A stretch of DNA of 9,813 nt, taken from assembly GCA_030746455.1 (NCBI GenBank), contig JASLMQ010000727.1, positions 1-9,813 on the forward strand, given 5' to 3'. This document shows, in pieces, positions 446 to 9,647 of this stretch (positions are counted from its first letter, which is position 1; each line of letters opens with the position of its first letter). Source of the stretch: Candidatus Latescibacterota bacterium (GTDB lineage Bacteria > Latescibacterota > UBA2968 > GCA-2709665). The notes below the pieces were generated by a model. That model saw only the letters and a program-made list of their open reading frames with translations, had not been told where the DNA came from and searched no databases. The position numbers and the translations under genes were made by a program.

Positions 446-2641
446 TCACGTCTCGGTCACCCAGCGGGGAAGGTCCTCATCCTGCTTCCGGCCATTGCCT
501 GCTGACGCTGCTGACACAGAACGACCGTTTTCCGGAAAGTCCCCATGTAGATTCATTGATTCACCTTTGCTGACTTCAGTGTCAGCAGCGTCAGCAGTGT
601 CAGCAAGCAGACCGATTCCCTGCCATCCGCGAGCGCCCTCGTGCCCGATCCGGGTGGTCTCAAGTCCCCTCTCGGTCAGCTTGACGCCCAGATCCCGCTG
701 ACGGAGGGGTCTCTCGCCGTTCTGCTCGCACCACTCGGTGTATGCCCGGTATAGGCCCTTCGACTTGGCTTGGCACTGTTCACTGATGACGCAACACTCT
801 TCGAGGAAAGAGGCGATGACGTCCATGTCGTCCCGGTAGGCCTTCGTGGCAGCCACCACCTTGTCAGGCGGCTGCAGCCCTTCGGCCTGCCATTCGAGAC
901 AACCCTCCACTGCCCAGCTGAGCAGCGTAGATAGTGATTCGCGGGAATTCAGCCTTTGGGGGAGAGTTCTGTCTTGCTTCTCGGCGGGGAAGTAGGCCTG
1001 GAACGGGACCAGGTGAACCCGGCTCCAGATCGCCTCATCTGTTCCGGTGATTCGTGGAGGGTGATTCGTGACGAGCACGATCTTGTCAGTGGGGTCATAT
1101 TCGAAGGGCTCGTGGTACAGGAAGCGGCCCAGGCGCCGGTCACCCCCGGTCAGGTACTTGACGCGCCCCTCCGCGAGTTTTCGTCCCTCCTCGCTCTCCA
1201 CACACCAGGTGAGACGGGATCCCCGGAGCATCGCGATCTCGTTGAGCGTGTTCTCGTTGCGGCGAACCATGAGAGCTTCGGAACTGATCTGAGCCCCATA
1301 GTCTCCCAGCATCGTCTGGAGTGCCCCAAGCAGCGTGGACTTGCCGTTCCGCCCGCCGCCGTGGAGCACGAACAGGACGTGCTCACGCACATCCGCGGTG
1401 AGCGAGTATCCTACCATTCGTTTCACATAGCCGATCACGTCCGAATCATCCTGGAAGATCTGACTCAGAAAGTCGAACACGAGAGCTTCCTGCGCAGAGG
1501 GGTCAAAATCCACCGGGGCAAGCTTCGTGATCAGGTCCTCTCGCCGGTGCTCGCGAAGCTCACCCGTACGCAGATCGATGGTGCCGTTCTCCACGTTGAG
1601 AAGGAACGGATCCACATCGAAATCGGTGACGAGTACGGGGAGGGGCAGCTTGCTCTGGGCACTCGAGAGAAGAGCCTTGACCTTCGCGTCCGATAGGGAT
1701 CGGGCCGCGTGCTTGAACAGGTCCGAAGCCTTGGCTCGGTCCGGCTCGACCGCGGCCTCTTCGGAGATGGCCTTGACCGTTTCGACCGCTCGCCGGCGGG
1801 CCTCGCCAGTCTTGTCCAAGATCCATCGATGGCCGTCCCACACCATCCACCCCCGGTCGTGGGCGTACCTGAGGTCGTGCCGATGGCGATCGATCAGACG
1901 ACTGGCGTTGCCATCGTCCGTGAGGGTGTAGGGCCGCTCTTGTGAGGGACACGCCTCGTCAAGAAGCTCCTGCAGGGCCTCCTTCCCCCGATGGACCAGG
2001 AAATCGTCCAGGCCCACCTTCGGGACACCAGGGAGGGCTGGGAGCCGCACGATGAGCGTGTCGGCGCCGCGTGCGTTGAGCTCCTTGGCCAGTTCCCTCT
2101 CGGCCGCACGCACCTGGGCATTCGTGGCTGCGTCAGAGTCATAGACGATGTAGGCTCTGCGTCCTTCCCACGCGATCTCCTCGAAGTCGGGGATCACGTG
2201 CTTCTGGCCGGTCTCCGGATCCTTACCTGCGCGCCAGGAATAGACGCCGGTGAGACCAACGCAGGCGAAACCTGCCTGCACAGCAGCCAACGTCTTCTTC
2301 TCGCCTTCCGTGAAATGGAGGGGGACGCTCGGGTCCTGAAGGGCCTTCCGGTCCAGTGTAGGAGGGACGTACAGACGATTGCAGGACTTTCGAGGGGAGA
2401 GATACTTCGCGGGCTTCTTCCAGCTCGGCGGCTGGAAGGGCTCATCAGGCTTGACTCGGAGGAGGGCAGCTTCCCCGTTTCCTTCCGTGAACGGGAAGAC
2501 GAGGCCGCCGCACGGCAGCTTGAAGTCCAGGATCTCCGAGGCCCCCTTCGAGTCAACCGAATAACACCCGCACGCGCGGATGGTCTCCGCTGTCAGACCG
2601 CTGGCTTTGAGATCTTCGAGGTGGGTGGGTTTCAAGTTCAT
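446..2641 (-). CDS. TOPRIM primase / superfamily 3 helicase replication protein (731 aa)
   Basis: This is a mobile-element replication initiator with primase-like and helicase halves. The N-terminus (1-30, HLEDLKASGLTAETIRACG) and residues 105-215 match the DUF3854/TOPRIM-like module: T-E-G-E-K-K (111-116) supplies the acidic residue and Y-D-S-D (167-170) the metal-binding D-x-D. Residues 348-380 (NVENGTIDLRTGEL onward) are the D5/P4-type N-domain of the helicase. The SF3 AAA+ core follows: Walker A GGGRNGKST (428-436), acidic Walker B-like ESEE (482-485), sensor-1 T-N (525-526) and arginine-finger candidate R541 in the W-S-R-V-x-L-V-P-F motif. Residues 620-678 look like a C-terminal winged domain. 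A low-complexity Ala/Asp/Ser tail (679-731) follows and is encoded by the repeat array at 499-605. The start at 2641 has AGGAG 7 nt upstream; the upstream in-frame extension to 2770 overlaps the preceding gene and is low complexity. It probably unwinds the element's origin and lays primers. Confidence 0.9.
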   Translation of the reverse strand: MNLKPTHLEDLKASGLTAETIRACGCYSVDSKGASEILDFKLPCGGLVFPFTEGNGEAALLRVKPDEPFQPPSWKKPAKYLSPRKSCNRLYVPPTLDRKALQDPSVPLHFTEGEKKTLAAVQAGFACVGLTGVYSWRAGKDPETGQKHVIPDFEEIAWEGRRAYIVYDSDAATNAQVRAAERELAKELNARGADTLIVRLPALPGVPKVGLDDFLVHRGKEALQELLDEACPSQERPYTLTDDGNASRLIDRHRHDLRYAHDRGWMVWDGHRWILDKTGEARRRAVETVKAISEEAAVEPDRAKASDLFKHAARSLSDAKVKALLSSAQSKLPLPVLVTDFDVDPFLLNVENGTIDLRTGELREHRREDLITKLAPVDFDPSAQEALVFDFLSQIFQDDSDVIGYVKRMVGYSLTADVREHVLFVLHGGGRNGKSTLLGALQTMLGDYGAQISSEALMVRRNENTLNEIAMLRGSRLTWCVESEEGRKLAEGRVKYLTGGDRRLGRFLYHEPFEYDPTDKIVLVTNHPPRITGTDEAIWSRVHLVPFQAYFPAEKQDRTLPQRLNSRESLSTLLSWAVEGCLEWQAEGLQPPDKVVAATKAYRDDMDVIASFLEECCVISEQCQAKSKGLYRAYTEWCEQNGERPLRQRDLGVKLTERGLETTRIGHEGARGWQGIGLLADTADAADTEVSKGESMNLHGDFPENGRSVSAASAGNGRKQDEDLPRWVTET
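499..605. repeat. Inverted iteron array inside the 3' end of the primase gene
   Basis: The heptamer TGCTGAC occurs at 500-506, 509-515 and 568-574, and its complement GTCAGCA at 581-587, 590-596 and 599-605. Neighbouring copies within the outer groups are exactly 9 bp apart. The arms 499-517 and 579-597 form a perfect 19-bp inverted repeat (GTGTCAGCAGCGTCAGCAG and its complement) around a 61-bp loop; the inner pair 568-574/581-587 is a 7-bp hairpin with a 6-nt loop. On the coding strand the two groups encode (ADT)(ADA)(ADT) and (VSA)(ASA). The copy at 568-574 is read in another codon phase (V-S-K), so the conserved unit is the DNA and not the peptide. Plausible roles are binding sites for the primase/helicase (an intragenic origin), a regulatory mRNA hairpin, or both. 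Confidence 0.85.
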
Positions 2642-3135: not shown

Positions 3136-3816
3136 CTATATGTCATTGCCTAGCAGGCTTTTGAGTCTTCGGTCCGCCTCGCATATTTCTTCCAGGGCCC
3201 TCTCGTAGCGGTCCCCATACCTAGCTTTCCTTGCCGCCTCAAAGCTCACGTCGGGGATCCCAAAGTGCTCAGCCAGGTCCACAATCACCCCGGCCTGGGC
3301 ATCGACTGTCAAGGCGGTGCATGCGTCGAGCATCACCCGGAGTTTGACAATGAGGCGATTGGTGGCCCCCCTGGGCGAGAGCCCTGCCTGGTCCTTGACG
3401 TCGGTCTCAAACCGAGCTTCCCAGTAGGGGATGAGCGCCGAGCGCAGCAGCCTGTCTACCTCCAAAGGGTCGGGTAGGGATACGTTCAGTTCCTTCAGCT
3501 GCTTCCGGCCTACCTGTAGCAGGATACGCCGCAACGTCTCAGCGGCCCTCATGGCATCTGCAAGAGCCGCTACATGAGGACCGATAGTCTCATCGTAGAG
3601 CTGTTCGACCGCCTCTTCTTTCTCGCAGCTTAACACAAAGGTCTCGTGCTTGAGCACGTAGAGGGCTTGAATCAGCCGCCATTCGAAGAGCGTGCGCGGA
3701 TCGTATCCTTGCTGCCTGCAGTATGTGAGGTACCGTACGCTCAAGTCAGGGAACTCCCACACGAATTCCTCGAGGCGCATGCGGATTGCAGTGCGAAGCG
3801 GATCCTCATTCGCCAT
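3136..3816 (-). CDS. Uncharacterised element protein (226 aa)
   Basis: I do not recognise this family. The product is 226 aa, apparently soluble and almost wholly helical, with no signal peptide or membrane segment. The N-terminus (1-60) has aromatic-rich helices (EEFVWEFPDLSVRYLTYCRQQ); the middle (75-130) is amphipathic helices. The C-terminal part (185-226) contains L-A-E-H-F-G-I-P-D-V-S, which resembles a helix-turn-helix start, followed by a charged helix with R/K and E/D alternation. The start at 3816 has GGAGG 5 nt upstream. It is the first minus-strand gene at the presumed element edge and has its own promoter candidate (3955-3983) and a long structured leader. Its base composition is less GC-rich than that of the metabolic genes to the right, consistent with foreign origin. 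A regulatory or replication-accessory role is possible, but nothing in the sequence proves it. Confidence 0.8.
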   Translation of the reverse strand: MANEDPLRTAIRMRLEEFVWEFPDLSVRYLTYCRQQGYDPRTLFEWRLIQALYVLKHETFVLSCEKEEAVEQLYDETIGPHVAALADAMRAAETLRRILLQVGRKQLKELNVSLPDPLEVDRLLRSALIPYWEARFETDVKDQAGLSPRGATNRLIVKLRVMLDACTALTVDAQAGVIVDLAEHFGIPDVSFEAARKARYGDRYERALEEICEADRRLKSLLGNDI

Positions 3817-4395: not shown

Positions 4396-5181
4396 ATGTA
4401 TGGGATCGACCTTGCCGGCGAGGCGGCCGTTGTCGCCGGTGTGTCCAACAAGTGGAGTATCGCCTGGGCGATCGCCCAGATGCTGCACGAGGCCGGCGCT
4501 CGCCTGGTGCTTCCCTATTTGAGCGAGCGGGAGCGAGGCGGCATTGAGAAGCTGGTCGCCGATGCGGAGTGGGATGACGTCGTTCTCCCGCCCGAATCGT
4601 GCAATGTGGCCGACGACGGGCAGATCCGGGATCTCTTCGAGTTCGTGGGCGGCGAGGTGGAGCGGCTGTCGTGCTTCGCCCACTGCATCGCCTTCGCGCC
4701 GCGGGAAGCCCTGCAGGGCGAGTTCAGCGAGACGTCACGCGAGGCCTTCCGCGTGGCGCTGGACATCAGCGCCTTTTCGCTGGTTGCCATGACGCGTGCC
4801 GCGGCACCCCTGATGACCCAGGGCGGGTCGGTGACCACGCTCTCGTTCATGGCCGCGGGAAAGGTGTTCCCGTCGTACAACGTGATGGGTACGGCCAAGG
4901 CGGCGCTGGAGTCCGCGGTCCGACAGCTCGCGGCGGAGCTGGGGCCAAGGAACATCCGGGTGAACGCGATTTCTCCAGGCCCGATCAGCACGGTGTCCGC
5001 CCGAGGGGTCAAGGGATTCGGGGATTTTCTGGAGATCTACAGGGACCGGGCGCCAATGGGGCGCAATATCACCCAGGAGGAAGTGGGCAAGGCGGCGTTG
5101 TTCTTCCTGAGCGATTTGTCGAGCGGCATCACGGGAACGGTGCTTCACGTGGATGGCGGATACCATGTGATGGGAGTTTAG
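4396..5181 (+). CDS. fabI: FabI-like NAD(P)H-dependent enoyl-ACP (or enoyl-CoA) reductase (261 aa)
   Basis: A cytoplasmic short-chain dehydrogenase of the divergent FabI type, which reduces trans-2-enoyl thioesters in the last step of the fatty-acid elongation cycle. The length (261 aa) is usual. The N-terminal nucleotide motif is the FabI form, A-G-V-S-N-K-W-S-I-A-W (14-24), not the standard G-x3-G-x-G. D/N-V-A (70-72) and H-C-I-A-F-A-P (96-102) follow. The catalytic Y161-x6-K168 lies in S-Y-N-V-M-G-T-A-K-A, then I-R-V-N-A-I-S-P-G-P-I (187-197) and the terminal H-V-D-G-G-Y (251-256). Against E. coli FabI, the first active-site tyrosine (Y146) is F151 here, as in InhA, and G93 is A99. AGGTGG lies 6 nt before the ATG. 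It is the first plus-strand gene, 157 bp before the acyl-CoA dehydrogenase, so a CoA-linked role beside beta-oxidation enzymes is possible. The symbol denotes the family, not a proven housekeeping role. Confidence 0.87.
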   Translation: MYGIDLAGEAAVVAGVSNKWSIAWAIAQMLHEAGARLVLPYLSERERGGIEKLVADAEWDDVVLPPESCNVADDGQIRDLFEFVGGEVERLSCFAHCIAFAPREALQGEFSETSREAFRVALDISAFSLVAMTRAAAPLMTQGGSVTTLSFMAAGKVFPSYNVMGTAKAALESAVRQLAAELGPRNIRVNAISPGPISTVSARGVKGFGDFLEIYRDRAPMGRNITQEEVGKAALFFLSDLSSGITGTVLHVDGGYHVMGV

Positions 5182-5338
5182 ACGAAGAGCAGGAAGCATT
5201 GGGGATTGAGAATTGAAGATTGAGAAATCAGGGGCGGGCAGCGTGCTGAGGACGAGCCCCGGAGGAGCAAGGAGGGCGGTGGAGGAAGGCGGGGAAATGC
5301 AAGATGCAAAATGACGGAGGATAGAGGGAGACGGGAAT
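5182..5338 (+). other. Purine-rich spacer with a 9-bp direct repeat
   Basis: This 157-bp spacer is strongly purine-biased on the plus strand. GATTGAGAA occurs at 5204-5212 and again at 5218-5226 (14-bp period), and AATGCAAGATGCAAAATG at 5295-5313 is a second internal near-repeat. No hairpin terminator is visible, so read-through from the enoyl reductase into the dehydrogenase gene is likely. GAGGGAG (5324-5330) is the ribosome site of the next gene. A 13-codon ORF from the ATG at 5311 overlaps that start and is probably meaningless. Confidence 0.5.
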
Positions 5339-7576
5339 ATGGCAGAGGATAAGGACGAGACCGTGGAGATGCTGCGGACGCTGCCGGGTGACGAGGTCCG
5401 ACAGATTATGTGGCGATTCGCCGAGCGTTTCGACCTCCAGATGGTCGTGCAGTCGGCACGGTCGGTGGCGCGAGGGCCGGTCGCCCGTCTGGTGGCCGAG
5501 GGCGGCCGGAACACGCACGACTGGACCGAGGGGAAAGCGGCGCTTCTGGGAGCCTACGACGAGGCCGGATTGACCTCCGTGTTCATGGAGCCGGAGTACG
5601 GCGGGTTCATCGAGGGTCCGAAGAACATGGCGCTGGCGCTGGTGGCCTTCGAGCTGGCCTGGGTGGACGGCGGCTCGGCCACGTGCAGCCTGGCGGGACA
5701 CCTGGCACTGTCTCCCATCCACGAGCGAGGCACCCCGGAGCAGGTGGAGACCTACATGAGCCGCTGCGTCCCCCTCCAGCCGGGAGAGGACCGGCAGATG
5801 TGGCGGGGGGCCTTCGCGCTCACCGAGCCATTGCCCTACGTGGGAGTGGATACGGGTGTCGTCTCGGGCCGGATCCGGGTGGCCGAGTGGGAGGACGGGA
5901 AGGAACCGACGGTCCAGGTGGACAAGCGGGGCCGGTTCATCACGAACATGGATTTCGCGAACTTCGTGGTGGCGGCGGTGACGTCTGATGAAGAGCGGAT
6001 CAAGGGCAGCTGCATGGTCATCCTGGAGGAGGACGATCCGGGCACATACGACCGTGGGGCGCCGACGCTCAAGCTGGTCCATCAGCTCTCTTCCACGCGC
6101 GATCCGATCCTGAGCCTGCAGGTACCCGCGAGCCGGATCGTGGGTGGCTACGAGGTGGTGGACGGCGTTATCGTCCCGAACTACAGCCACGGTGAGGTGA
6201 TCGATGCCGTGTTCCGGCGGACTCGCGTGACGGTGGGGTTGATGACGTCCGCGAAGCTGCTGTCGGCCGTCGAGCCGGTGGTCCGGTACCAGCGCAACCG
6301 GTTCCGGGGCGGAGACGCAGCGGAGCCCGGATCGCCGCGGTACGAGATGGGGCTGCAACAGCGGGAAGACGTGCTGCATCGGCTGGTGGATGTGTGGGCC
6401 ACGGGTGAGGCGAGTGCCTCGCTCGGGTTCGCTGCGGCGCGGCTGTTCGACGAGTACGATCCTATGGAGAGTCAGAAGAACGCGATCCTTGCCGAACAGG
6501 GCGCTTCGGCTCCCAGGGCCCAGATGCGCGCCTTGAGGAAGATGCACACCCCGGCACTCGAGTACCTCGGTCTGGCGGCGCAGCCGGAGGACTCGCGGGA
6601 TACGGCGCGGCTGCAGGAGCTCGAGTCCGACCCCCTGGTGGTCTACCTGGTGAAGGATGCCGTGGCCAACGTGCTCTGCCCCGCGTGCAAGCTGTGGAAC
6701 ACGGGGCACGGGGCGAATATGATGCGGGAGGCCGTAAGCCTGATGGGGGGCTACGGAATCACCGAGGATTGCCCGGGCTTCCTCGGGCAGAAGTGGATGG
6801 ACGCCCAGCTCGAGGCCACATACGAGGGGCCCGAGGCGGTGCAGCGGCGGCAGCTGAGCGTGACGATGACGAACGAGATCTTCCTCGCCCACTTCAGGGA
6901 ATGGATCTCCGAGATGCGACGGATCGCGAGCCAGCGTCCTGGAACCGGGGCCTGCACCCTGGCCTCGGCCATGGCGCTTTGGGAATGGACGCTCCGATAC
7001 CTGCTGGAGGCAAAGGACGCCGACGGCAAGGTGCTCTACCGGGACAGCCGGCAGGGCGTGACGTTCCCAATGGCCGACGCCCTATGCTGGCTTCTGGCCT
7101 CGCGCTACCAGATCCTGGACACGATCGAGCTGGAGGAGAAGGGGGCAGACAATCCGGCTCTGGCGGATGGACTGCCGGGATACGTGGCGTTCTTCACCGA
7201 TCTCTGTCACCTTCAGGCCGCGCGGGCGTCCGGCGAGGCGGGCCGGATCTGCGCCGAGCTCGCGTTCGGGTACAACCGTCATCCGGGATGGGACGCCGAG
7301 GGTGCCTCGTGCTACGGGGCGGACGATCTGGCCGCGCTGGAAGGCGTGATGCCGGGCATCGCGTCCGGGGCGGAGTCCACGGGCGACGTGATCGGGGCCG
7401 ACGGCTCGCACGCCGACAAGGCCGGGCCCTGCGCGTGTTTCGAGGGGATGGAGACGTTTGTGCGGCTGCGGACCCGGCTCGACGGGTGTCTGTCGGGCGC
7501 GAGATTGGCGAAGGACCGGGCGGCAAAGGCGTTGTCACAGGTGATGATACCGGAAGCGCTCGATTATCCCCTCTAG
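5339..7576 (+). CDS. Long acyl-CoA dehydrogenase with extended C-terminus (745 aa)
   Basis: An FAD-dependent acyl-CoA dehydrogenase, which forms the trans-2-enoyl-CoA and passes electrons to ETF. Usual order of parts: helical N-domain (about 20-150) with F-M-E-P-E-Y-G-G (82-89); beta-domain opening with A-L-T-E-P (160-164); C-terminal helical domain with R-T-R-V-T-V-G (294-300), M-G-G-Y-G-I-T-E-D (469-477) for flavin contact and Y-E-G (495-497), whose E496 is in the place of the catalytic base of the MCAD group. Two features are unusual. The G-S-D that normally follows T-E-P is replaced by L-P-Y-V-G-V-D. About 235 residues (510-745) continue past the catalytic region, making it longer than typical 380-aa enzymes and nearer the VLCAD/FadE size class; this tail is helical and contains Cys residues at 698 and 700. 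GAGGGAG lies 8 nt before the ATG. Substrate is unknown; long or branched acyl-CoA is plausible. The ETF:quinone oxidoreductase-like gene follows. Confidence 0.9.
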   Translation: MAEDKDETVEMLRTLPGDEVRQIMWRFAERFDLQMVVQSARSVARGPVARLVAEGGRNTHDWTEGKAALLGAYDEAGLTSVFMEPEYGGFIEGPKNMALALVAFELAWVDGGSATCSLAGHLALSPIHERGTPEQVETYMSRCVPLQPGEDRQMWRGAFALTEPLPYVGVDTGVVSGRIRVAEWEDGKEPTVQVDKRGRFITNMDFANFVVAAVTSDEERIKGSCMVILEEDDPGTYDRGAPTLKLVHQLSSTRDPILSLQVPASRIVGGYEVVDGVIVPNYSHGEVIDAVFRRTRVTVGLMTSAKLLSAVEPVVRYQRNRFRGGDAAEPGSPRYEMGLQQREDVLHRLVDVWATGEASASLGFAAARLFDEYDPMESQKNAILAEQGASAPRAQMRALRKMHTPALEYLGLAAQPEDSRDTARLQELESDPLVVYLVKDAVANVLCPACKLWNTGHGANMMREAVSLMGGYGITEDCPGFLGQKWMDAQLEATYEGPEAVQRRQLSVTMTNEIFLAHFREWISEMRRIASQRPGTGACTLASAMALWEWTLRYLLEAKDADGKVLYRDSRQGVTFPMADALCWLLASRYQILDTIELEEKGADNPALADGLPGYVAFFTDLCHLQAARASGEAGRICAELAFGYNRHPGWDAEGASCYGADDLAALEGVMPGIASGAESTGDVIGADGSHADKAGPCACFEGMETFVRLRTRLDGCLSGARLAKDRAAKALSQVMIPEALDYPL

Positions 7577-7729
7577 CTAGCGATCAGCTCTCAGCGGTCA
7601 GCCTTCCCTCCTCCGCAAGGCTGCGGAGGGCAGGCAGCAGAACCGGCGCATGGCGCGCCACGATGGAGGTAACCTTCAGGCGCAGACATCTATCTGTGTT
7701 GGCTGACAGCTGAATGCTGAAGGCTGTCT
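7577..7729. repeat. Intergenic inverted repeat built from 7-bp TCAGC/GCTGA units
   Basis: Starting at the base after the dehydrogenase stop, TCAGC recurs at 7-bp steps (7584, 7591, 7598, with CTAGC at 7577). At the far end GCTGA recurs at 7-bp steps on the same strand (7702, 7709, 7716, then GCTGT at 7723). The two ends are therefore complementary arms about 150 bp apart. Between them CCTCCGCA-AGGC-TGCGGAGG (7610-7629) is a perfect 8-bp hairpin with a 4-nt loop. No T-run follows it, so it is not a standard intrinsic terminator. The layout suggests a small non-coding repeat family (REP/MITE-like) that may be dispersed in the genome. It fills most of the 217-bp spacer before the flavoprotein gene. 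Confidence 0.7.
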
Positions 7730-7793
7730 TCCCATATGTCGAGGAAATGTCATCAGAACCTGAACAGACCCCACTTGGAGAGGTGAAGTATAG

Positions 7794-9647
7794 ATGGCAA
7801 GTGGCACCGAGATAGAGCGCCAGAGCATGGAGGTGGACATCGTCTGCGTGGGGTTCGGGCCCGCGGTGGGCGGGTTCCTGACAACGCTGACACGGGCGAT
7901 GCTGGACGATGACGGGCAGGTCGCGCTGCCCAGCCGGGTGATGCCCGGAATGCCCCTACAGGTGATGTGCTACGAGCGGTCCGACGACATCGGCTTCGGC
8001 GTGTCCGGCGTGGCTACGCGAGGCCGAAGCCTGCAGGAGAGCTTTCCGGATCTTGATCCGGCGCAGATTCCGCTGGCGCATCCGGTCGAAGAGGAGAAGG
8101 TGCTGTATCTGCTCGATCCTGTGGGCGCCAGCCGGCGTTCGCTCGCCCTACGTGCCGCCGATGGGCTCCTGGGGCTGTCCGGTCAGGCTCGAGACCACGC
8201 CTTCGAGCTGCCCTACATTCCCCCTTTCCTGAGCAAGGAAGGGGGATTCCTGTTCTCCATCGGCCAACTCAACCAGTGGGTGGGGTCCCAGCTGATGGGC
8301 TCGGGGCAGGTCCAGATCTGGCCGGGCATGCCGGTCAACGAGCCCCTGATCGAAGACGATCGCGTGGTGGGCGTGCGGCTGGTGGACCAGGGAACCGACA
8401 AAGAGGGGAATCCAGACACGGGATACATGCCCGGGATGGACATTCGGGCGGCTCTGACCGTTGTGGGCGACGGCCCGGTGGGTTCAGTGGGACAGAAGCT
8501 GGACGGGCACTTCGGCCTGCCCGAAGGAAACCACACCCGGGACTGGGCCGTGGGGATGAAGATGGTGGTGGACCTGCCGGAGGGCTGCACGCTGGAGCCG
8601 GGAACGGTGCTCCACACCTTCGGGTATCCCGAGCCCGAGATCTTCGGTTTTCTCTACGTGTATCCCGATCGGGTCGCCTCACTGGGGATCTTCGTTCCTT
8701 CGTGGCTGGACAGCCCGGTGCGCACGAGCTACACCTATCTCCAGCACTGGATGAGGCACCCGTCCATCTGGCAGTACCTGGAGGGCGGCAGCATGCGGTC
8801 CTGGGGCGCCAAGACGCTACAGGAGTCCGGACGCAGAGGGGAGCCCTATCTTGTGGGCGACGGGTACGCGCGGATCGGCGAGGGCTCGGGAAGCACAAAC
8901 GTCCTGACCGGATCGGGTGTGGACGAGGCGTGGGCCACGGGGGTCCAGCTTGCGGAGGGCGTGATCGAGCTGACCAAGGCGGACAAGCCGTTCACGAAGG
9001 AGAATCTGGACGCGGCGTACTTGCAGCGGCGGCGAAACAGCTGGGTCGAGTCGGAAGGAATCGAGGCGGAGCGGGCACGGGACGGATTCCAGCGCGGGTT
9101 CGTCACGGGGATGATGGGGATGGGCCTGGCCGGCCTCACGGGAGGCAAGATCTTTGTACCCACGCGGCTGCGCCTTCCGCGAGAACACGTGCCTCCGCTG
9201 GAGGCCTACTACAGAGGGAAGATCGCGCCGAAGGAGATCGAGACGATCCGCAAGGAAAGCGTCGCGTCCGGCACGTCGATGCACGGCGCGCTGATGGAAC
9301 GAAGCGGGTGGCCTGCCATCGAACACGACGGCAAGCTGCTCGTTTCCCACCAGGACGCGCTGTTGATCGGCGGCAAGGTGCAGGCGCCGGCGGCCTATCC
9401 GGATCACGTGGTGTTCCTCTATCCCTCGCTGTGCGAGCAGTGCGACAACCAGCTGTGCATCGAGATCTGCTCGGGGCAGGCGATCACTCCGGGCGAAGCG
9501 GGCGGGGTGCCCGAGTTTGACCGCGAGAAGTGCGTGCACTGCGGCGCGTGCCTCTGGAACTGCACGCAAGCACACGTGGAGGATCCCGAGCGAGGCAATA
9601 TCGAGTTCAGGGCCGGCGCGGGGGGGTTGCACTCGGCGGAGAACTAA
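7794..9647 (+). CDS. ETF:quinone oxidoreductase-like flavoprotein with eight-Cys ferredoxin tail (617 aa)
   Basis: Resembles electron-transfer flavoprotein:ubiquinone oxidoreductase and FixC fused to FixX; the family takes electrons from reduced ETF and gives them to quinone at the membrane surface. The FAD-binding fold starts with V-G-F-G-P-A-V-G-G (19-27); the later FAD motif V-G-D-G-P-V-G-S (224-231) precedes Q-K-L; G-E-G-S-G-S-T-N-V (362-370) begins the last flavin segment. A hydrophobic stretch (437-450, VTGMMGMGLAGLTG) fits the monotopic membrane-contact region. The C-terminus has C547-x2-C550-x4-C555-x3-C559 and C580-x2-C583-x2-C586-x3-C590. Canonical ETF-QO binds one [4Fe-4S] with four Cys (equivalents C559, C580, C583, C586); the extra four imply a second cluster. 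The start at 7794 has GGAGAGGTGA upstream ending 7 nt before the ATG. Placed downstream of the acyl-CoA dehydrogenase, it is the likely electron outlet; no etfA/etfB is in view. FixC/FixX-like or a direct dehydrogenase partner are alternatives. Confidence 0.85.
   Translation: MASGTEIERQSMEVDIVCVGFGPAVGGFLTTLTRAMLDDDGQVALPSRVMPGMPLQVMCYERSDDIGFGVSGVATRGRSLQESFPDLDPAQIPLAHPVEEEKVLYLLDPVGASRRSLALRAADGLLGLSGQARDHAFELPYIPPFLSKEGGFLFSIGQLNQWVGSQLMGSGQVQIWPGMPVNEPLIEDDRVVGVRLVDQGTDKEGNPDTGYMPGMDIRAALTVVGDGPVGSVGQKLDGHFGLPEGNHTRDWAVGMKMVVDLPEGCTLEPGTVLHTFGYPEPEIFGFLYVYPDRVASLGIFVPSWLDSPVRTSYTYLQHWMRHPSIWQYLEGGSMRSWGAKTLQESGRRGEPYLVGDGYARIGEGSGSTNVLTGSGVDEAWATGVQLAEGVIELTKADKPFTKENLDAAYLQRRRNSWVESEGIEAERARDGFQRGFVTGMMGMGLAGLTGGKIFVPTRLRLPREHVPPLEAYYRGKIAPKEIETIRKESVASGTSMHGALMERSGWPAIEHDGKLLVSHQDALLIGGKVQAPAAYPDHVVFLYPSLCEQCDNQLCIEICSGQAITPGEAGGVPEFDREKCVHCGACLWNCTQAHVEDPERGNIEFRAGAGGLHSAEN

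Follow-up and report, generated by a model that had tools for sequence, protein, structure and literature searches.

A translated array of facing iterons at the 3′ end of a P4-type primase-helicase gene, most likely a satellite-type replication origin

In the satellite phage P4 the origin and crr are located at separate sites, and in lambdoid phages the origin iterons stand on one side of the AT-rich region, lambda O being a member of another protein family and not a helicase. Passages of PMC4234260 report that the winged helix of the P4 alpha protein binds origin repeats and that plasmid pRN1 needs an element with a 21-nt stem and a 58-nt loop behind the gene of ORF904. In phage-inducible chromosomal islands (PICI), among them Staphylococcus aureus pathogenicity islands (SaPI), two iteron sets flank an AT-rich region at the 3′ end of the initiator gene (passages of PMC6092414), and the O gene of lambdoid phages contains their origin, extra iterons adding residues to O (passages of PMC7466680). 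Here we describe a stretch of 9813 bases (the window) from a Candidatus Latescibacterota bacterium (assembly GCA_030746455.1, contig JASLMQ010000727.1), in which six iteron copies face each other within the 3′ end of a gene for a P4-type primase-helicase. This array is most likely a PICI/P4-type origin that lies within the 3′ end of its initiator gene and is translated along with it. On sequence comparison, we put at roughly 80% the probability that the mobile element carrying the gene uses it as replication origin, read by the element's own primase-helicase.

The encoded protein has the domain order TOPRIM-like N-terminal primase, D5_N, superfamily 3 (SF3) helicase, C-terminal winged helix and disordered tail. 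It matched TIGR01613 (primase_Cterm SF3 helicase) with 278.9 bits (cut-off 108.7), D5_N with 118.6 bits (cut-off 22.4) and, at residues 605–657, Pox_D5 with 34.3 bits (cut-off 21.4). The structure model of the winged helix is confident, with helices and a closing hairpin, and the primase-helicase of SaPI5 is a fold match whose alignment runs to residue 681–683 of the window protein. The gene and its array comprise the following features:

446–2641, minus strand: intact P4-type primase-helicase gene, 731 amino acids (profile matches, structure model)
605–820, minus strand: C-terminal winged helix, residues 608–679 (Pox_D5 match, structure model, SaPI5 alignment); presumed reader of the repeats
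446–592, minus strand: array-encoded protein tail, residues 684–731 plus stop codon, predicted disordered (predicted local distance difference test, pLDDT, below 50)
500, 509, 568 (plus strand) and 581, 590, 599 (minus strand): starts of the iteron copies, exact word matches
581–605, minus strand: left arm in gene orientation, three TGCTGAC with a 9-bp period, beginning 1 nt before the winged-helix end
568–574, plus strand: one inverted copy on its own, separated from the left arm by 6 bp, in another codon phase and read V-S-K
516–580, unstranded: 65-bp spacer between the arms, containing the 568–574 copy; presumed opening site
500–515, plus strand: right arm, two inverted iterons (GTCAGCA in gene orientation) with a 9-bp period
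499–597, unstranded: perfect 19-bp inverted repeat with a 61-nt loop, of dimensions near those of the pRN1 stem-loop

The first-pass annotation, made from the letters alone, had reported six copies of TGCTGAC/GTCAGCA with 9-bp periods in 106 bp; their positions proved exact, with three copies per orientation and none in the window outside 500–605. On the minus strand, three TGCTGAC copies in 9-bp steps are followed by an inverted copy 6 bp further on, a gap, and two inverted copies in a 9-bp step. The perfect 19-bp repeat seen earlier (499–517/579–597) forms the core of a longer one, 499–521/575–597, with 96% identity. Dinucleotide shuffles of the window contained a mean of 1.52 copies of TGCTGAC, about one per 6.5 kb and near the one per 8 kb first estimated, and six or more copies anywhere, clustering ignored, were obtained in 2 of 200 shuffles. 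The GC content of the spacer is 0.45 vs 0.63 locally, which is lower, yet not AT-rich in absolute terms.

The whole array is coding (approximately residues 679–714 of 731), and the repeats might have been incidental to an Ala/Asp/Ser-rich tail selected as a functional protein. The 9-bp periods preserve the frame in the arms, and several of 120 homologues listed have tripeptide-repeat tails; the first-pass annotation had mentioned Ala/Asp/Ser- or Thr-rich repeated tails in relatives. On the other hand, arm copies are read T-GCT-GAC and G-TCA-GCA, and the copy at 568–574 is read GTC-AGC-A, so that five copies share related phases and the sixth does not, as had been remarked. When the tail codons were resampled synonymously with the gene's own usage and the peptide kept, none of 20,000 trials reproduced the array: six copies of any heptamer never occurred (maximum 5), nor did three copies per orientation (maximum 2). 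Codon choice is no explanation for the six-copy array in the window.

The window protein shares with P4 alpha the TOPRIM-type primase domain at the N-terminus, the SF3 helicase and the winged helix, and differs from the P4 arrangement in having one array at the gene end. The likeness to PICI/SaPI elements consists of an initiator helicase whose C-terminal domain reads DNA and of iteron sets that flank a low-GC stretch at the 3′ end of the gene (passages of PMC6092414). In the window, however, the array is inside the reading frame and the spacer is AT-rich only in relation to its surroundings; opposite orientation of the two sets, which the window displays, is the criterion of our survey of relatives, whereas passages of that paper state two flanking sets. 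Staphylococcal SCCmec Cch2, a Primase_Cterm/D5_N helicase, has a C-terminal domain that binds a putative origin just downstream of its gene, but there binding is carried by three direct repeats in non-coding DNA (passages of PMC7581432). The pRN1 ORF904 system resembles the window in its primase-SF3 helicase-winged helix protein, in its nearly equal stem and loop sizes and in a layout that is kept while the sequence varies; it differs in its archaeal-type primase, its non-coding position and its interpretation by the authors as a stem-loop without iterons (passages of PMC4234260). Iterons within the coding sequence of an initiator are also a trait of lambdoid O (passages of PMC7466680), with the origin in mid-gene instead of at the gene end. 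The window thus most likely presents a known satellite (PICI)/P4-type origin whose unusual part is its translated position, and lambda O is a precedent for an origin within a gene as such. A literature search that lacked most subscription papers yielded no published facing array inside a primase-helicase (primase_Cterm) gene, nor a description of its breadth.

For the survey, 160 loci were gathered from an alignment of 28 homologues, 80 from a second alignment and 85 from phylum samples and whole genomes reached through loci, and the winged-helix end was located with a profile of residues 240–679. From these 325 loci and the window, 278 had a core match to the winged-helix end, 277 of them a stop, and 231 were non-redundant with 250 nt behind; the 231 include the window, whereas the 225 with a full 700-nt slot exclude it. 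The strict detector took at least two exact direct copies within 22 nt facing at least two inverted ones, with arms at most 160 apart and words from 6-mers up; the relaxed detector took 8-mers with one mismatch allowed in 500-nt windows. Strict arrays were present in 105/225 slots behind the winged helix, in comparison with 0–5 of 136–230 in nine other 700-nt windows; at 7-mers the values were 62/225 vs 0–2, and at 8-mers 39/225 vs 0–1. Relaxed arrays were found in 147/229 (1/230, 3/222, 6/209 and 4/155 in other windows), and shuffled 3′ ends gave none in 1590. The arrays behind P4-type primase genes span viral contigs, named phages and genome contigs of several phyla. In the phylum of the genome with locus L082 (Anaerolineae record), counted separately with redundancy kept and 19 of 29 genes usable, strict arrays were found in 12/19, 7 of them coding.

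Unit words vary widely among relatives (GTGACGC, GCGGACGCGT, ACGGAAGGA, GTAGAGGAA, TGTGAACCTT, TTAACCT and others), so the repeats are not conserved merely as amino acids. Paired arrays with different units at the same position are what the comparison of homologous 3′ ends proposed by the first-pass annotation brought out, and the outcome that it had named as refuting its reading did not arise. Copy-to-copy steps are mostly 9 or 10 bp (89/149 intervals, counted in the first 61 arrays with redundancy retained), arm spacing clusters at approximately 45–85 bp with a second group at 100–153, and the spacer has a lower GC content than its surroundings in 101/108 arrays. Units with a TGAC/TGAA polarity point from the left arm into the spacer in 29/74 cases and the opposite way in 3/74. 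This comparison makes an origin recognised by its own gene's product, as first proposed for the window, well supported.

Besides the anatomy of the array, its excess over chance, its recurrence at the same place with other words and the constraint on its DNA, a coincidence with an annotated origin was observed. The record of the streptococcal phage Sfi21 places an origin of replication at 34487–34784, starting within the end of a putative primase gene (to 34515). The primase matched the profile with an E value of 7.6e-20, the match stopping 21 positions short of the winged-helix end, which was extrapolated, and an array of TTAGTTAC (2+2) lies inside the annotated origin.

With regard to the stop codon, 68 of the 108 arrays lie behind it; the stop falls in the left arm in 13, in the spacer in 6 and in the right arm in 1, and 20, the window included, are wholly coding. 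This corrects the first reading of the placement: arrays usually come just after the stop codon, and a wholly coding placement is that of a minority. Coding arrays are found in GC-richer surroundings (median 0.61 vs 0.56, p 0.011), a bias that would follow if a scarcity of stops often led to accidental read-through. One of the 20, L106, has a 331-residue tail that resembles a chance open frame. Read-through is not always incidental: the proteins of L235 and L244 have 75% identity over 53 residues behind arrays whose words differ, L176 and L179 have a common cysteine-rich end (42% of 33 residues), and in L246 the frame continues into a 3′-5′ exonuclease (E 1.5e-28) and a DNA polymerase A domain (E 5.1e-68). 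The L246 linker holds two full coding array pairs, AGTGACG (3+3) and TTAACCT (4+3), translated as SDVSDVSDV/TSLTSLTSL and VNLVNLVNLVNL/KEVKEVKEV.

Primase-helicase, exonuclease and DNA polymerase A are fused in one frame in L246 (6230–8551 of a viral contig); ten named actinophages encode DNA polymerase I separately, a short way behind the primase gene. In Mycobacterium phage Reptar3000 (L362) the primase stop codon is within the first iteron (TAGGGACA), 78 nt behind the winged-helix end; the array of this M. smegmatis phage has AGGGACA as its unit (4+3). L235 and L244 are homologous genes of one genome (G679), with 218/334 core residues identical; their repeat words are unlike, their winged-helix ends are unlike by eye, and they form a natural specificity pair.

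Several results weigh against the origin reading. No array was found by either detector in 77/229 relatives. L326 has no array behind its winged-helix end. Only 4/15 named phages have a strict array and a fifth a relaxed one, none wholly coding; only 1/5 named plasmids has one, with the strict detector alone run; and none was found in the ten actinophages whose next genes include DNA polymerase I. GC skew, which had been proposed as a check, shows no inflection at the window array, a result that is uninformative for an integrated element. A single-protein query retrieved no close DNA relatives of the window gene from genome or viral contigs, and synonymous constraint was therefore tested on four other pairs, one of which (L334/L335) has no coding iterons; in L235/L244, where the words are replaced, codons were identical at 0/5 identical iteron residues vs 124/218 in the gene body. 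In a graded Mantel test on 74 units, unit similarity followed the helicase no less well than the winged helix (helicase given the winged helix, r 0.13, 1/999 permutations). Finally, 42/108 arrays are mirror-symmetric and would, like the window with its common 9-bp step in both arms, allow a stem-loop. Extremes of GC skew in five plasmids and Sfi21 were not consistently at the slot and were dropped as an origin marker.

In the coding pair L345/L346 the constraint was strong: codons were identical at 20/21 identical iteron residues vs 149/302 in the gene body (Fisher 1.7e-5) and 66/88 among the remaining tail residues (p 0.04). The L176/L179 pair gave 7/8 vs 193/337 in the body, on few positions and with no significance test. 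Copies of one orientation occupy more than one codon phase in 11/20 coding arrays, and the arms encode different peptides because they are reverse complements. These sequence data indicate that the repeats are kept as DNA and not as peptide, and the repetitive tails of primases are best explained as a side effect of the array's translation. With 68/108 arrays behind the stop and the window tail predicted disordered, selection for a functional repeat peptide is very hard to credit.

A different reading of the arms would be a stem-loop origin of the pRN1 kind, acting as cruciform or hairpin, with the protein assembling on the structure and not on repeated sites. The essential element of pRN1, whose shape and not sequence is kept in related plasmids (passages of PMC4234260), compares closely with the 19-bp stem and 61-nt loop of the window. 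Perfect stems of at least 12 were detected in 63/107 strict, 18/45 relaxed-only and 13/77 array-less slots (two control windows, 0–4 per group). In the array-less slots the loop was 40–160 nt and the control windows gave 1/78 and 4/68; these may be possible single-site or stem-loop origins. The RNA fold of the window array has a z of −8.0, which cannot separate the two models because facing arrays fold anyway. However, 45/108 arrays have no copy-to-copy interval common to both arms and therefore no single continuous stem over two copies, the remainder beyond the 42 mirror-symmetric ones being partly symmetric. Direct repeats within each arm would be unnecessary for a stem, and the TGAC/TGAA strand polarity would not be required. 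We consider the stem-loop explanation unlikely.

Iterons often also autoregulate, and the array stands upstream of, and on the same strand as, a PC4-like gene (54–314), so the protein might bind it as an operator or attenuator of its own operon or of that gene, with no origin function. Against this, the array in relatives lies behind its gene and not before it, the Sfi21 instance is annotated as an origin, and two facing sets around a low-GC spacer are origin anatomy. A purely regulatory role is quite improbable.

Under the origin reading, the primase-helicase would bind the array through its C-terminal winged helix, and the copies on each arm would seat one SF3 hexamer. The two hexamers, facing one another from either side of the low-GC spacer, would then open it and prime each fork, with bidirectional firing. 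The array follows immediately on the winged-helix coding region whether a stop codon comes first or not; in the window no in-frame stop precedes it, and the putative origin is therefore translated into a disordered tail.

In the graded Mantel test, the association of units with the winged helix given the helicase was r 0.07 (51/999 permutations). A later test, which scored exact sharing of words among 122 non-redundant genes and used a curved control for the helicase, favoured the winged helix and gave r 0.061 for the winged helix (3/499) and 0.018 for the helicase given the winged helix (116/499). Among the pairs listed, L018/L030 (helicase 0.93, winged helix 0.79) have no common word; L027/L030 (0.93, 0.94) have one, as do L027/L128 (0.93, 0.74). 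Specific co-variation of word and winged helix is thus test-dependent and gives weak support to recognition by the winged helix. Binding of the array by the window protein itself is suggested by analogy with Cch2 and the PICI Rep protein, together with this weak co-variation.

A broader proposal, to which we give even odds, is that primase-helicase replicons share one origin design, with facing arrays behind the winged helix, fast-changing words and TGA-ward polarity. A sizeable minority would be truly embedded in coding sequence, even in interdomain linkers, and one and the same element would have been described under different names as the pRN1 "stem-loop", the PICI origin and the Sfi21 origin. 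With the arrays as a guide, origins in uncultured mobile elements can be sought by a simple rule, namely directly behind the winged helix, and repetitive primase tails in databases may be explained as translated origins. The many natural initiator-word pairs are a source for learning the winged-helix recognition code.

The PC4-like (p15 coactivator) gene on the minus strand, directly downstream of the primase gene, matched with 46.1 bits (cut-off 25). No integrase was found among the seven window proteins scanned, the element's end being outside view, and no satellite genes were recognised within the window. An HTH_17 match at 2724–2936 was below cut-off, and upstream of this HTH_17-like gene an open frame of 226 residues (3136–3816, minus strand) has no match in Pfam, PHROGs or NCBIfam. 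The plus-strand genes at 4396–9647 are of bacterial metabolism (FabI-like, acyl-CoA dehydrogenase, electron transfer flavoprotein (ETF) dehydrogenase-like), and the element therefore looks integrated. The few named relatives of the ETF-like flank protein belong to Gemmatimonadota, Latescibacterota, Omnitrophota and others.
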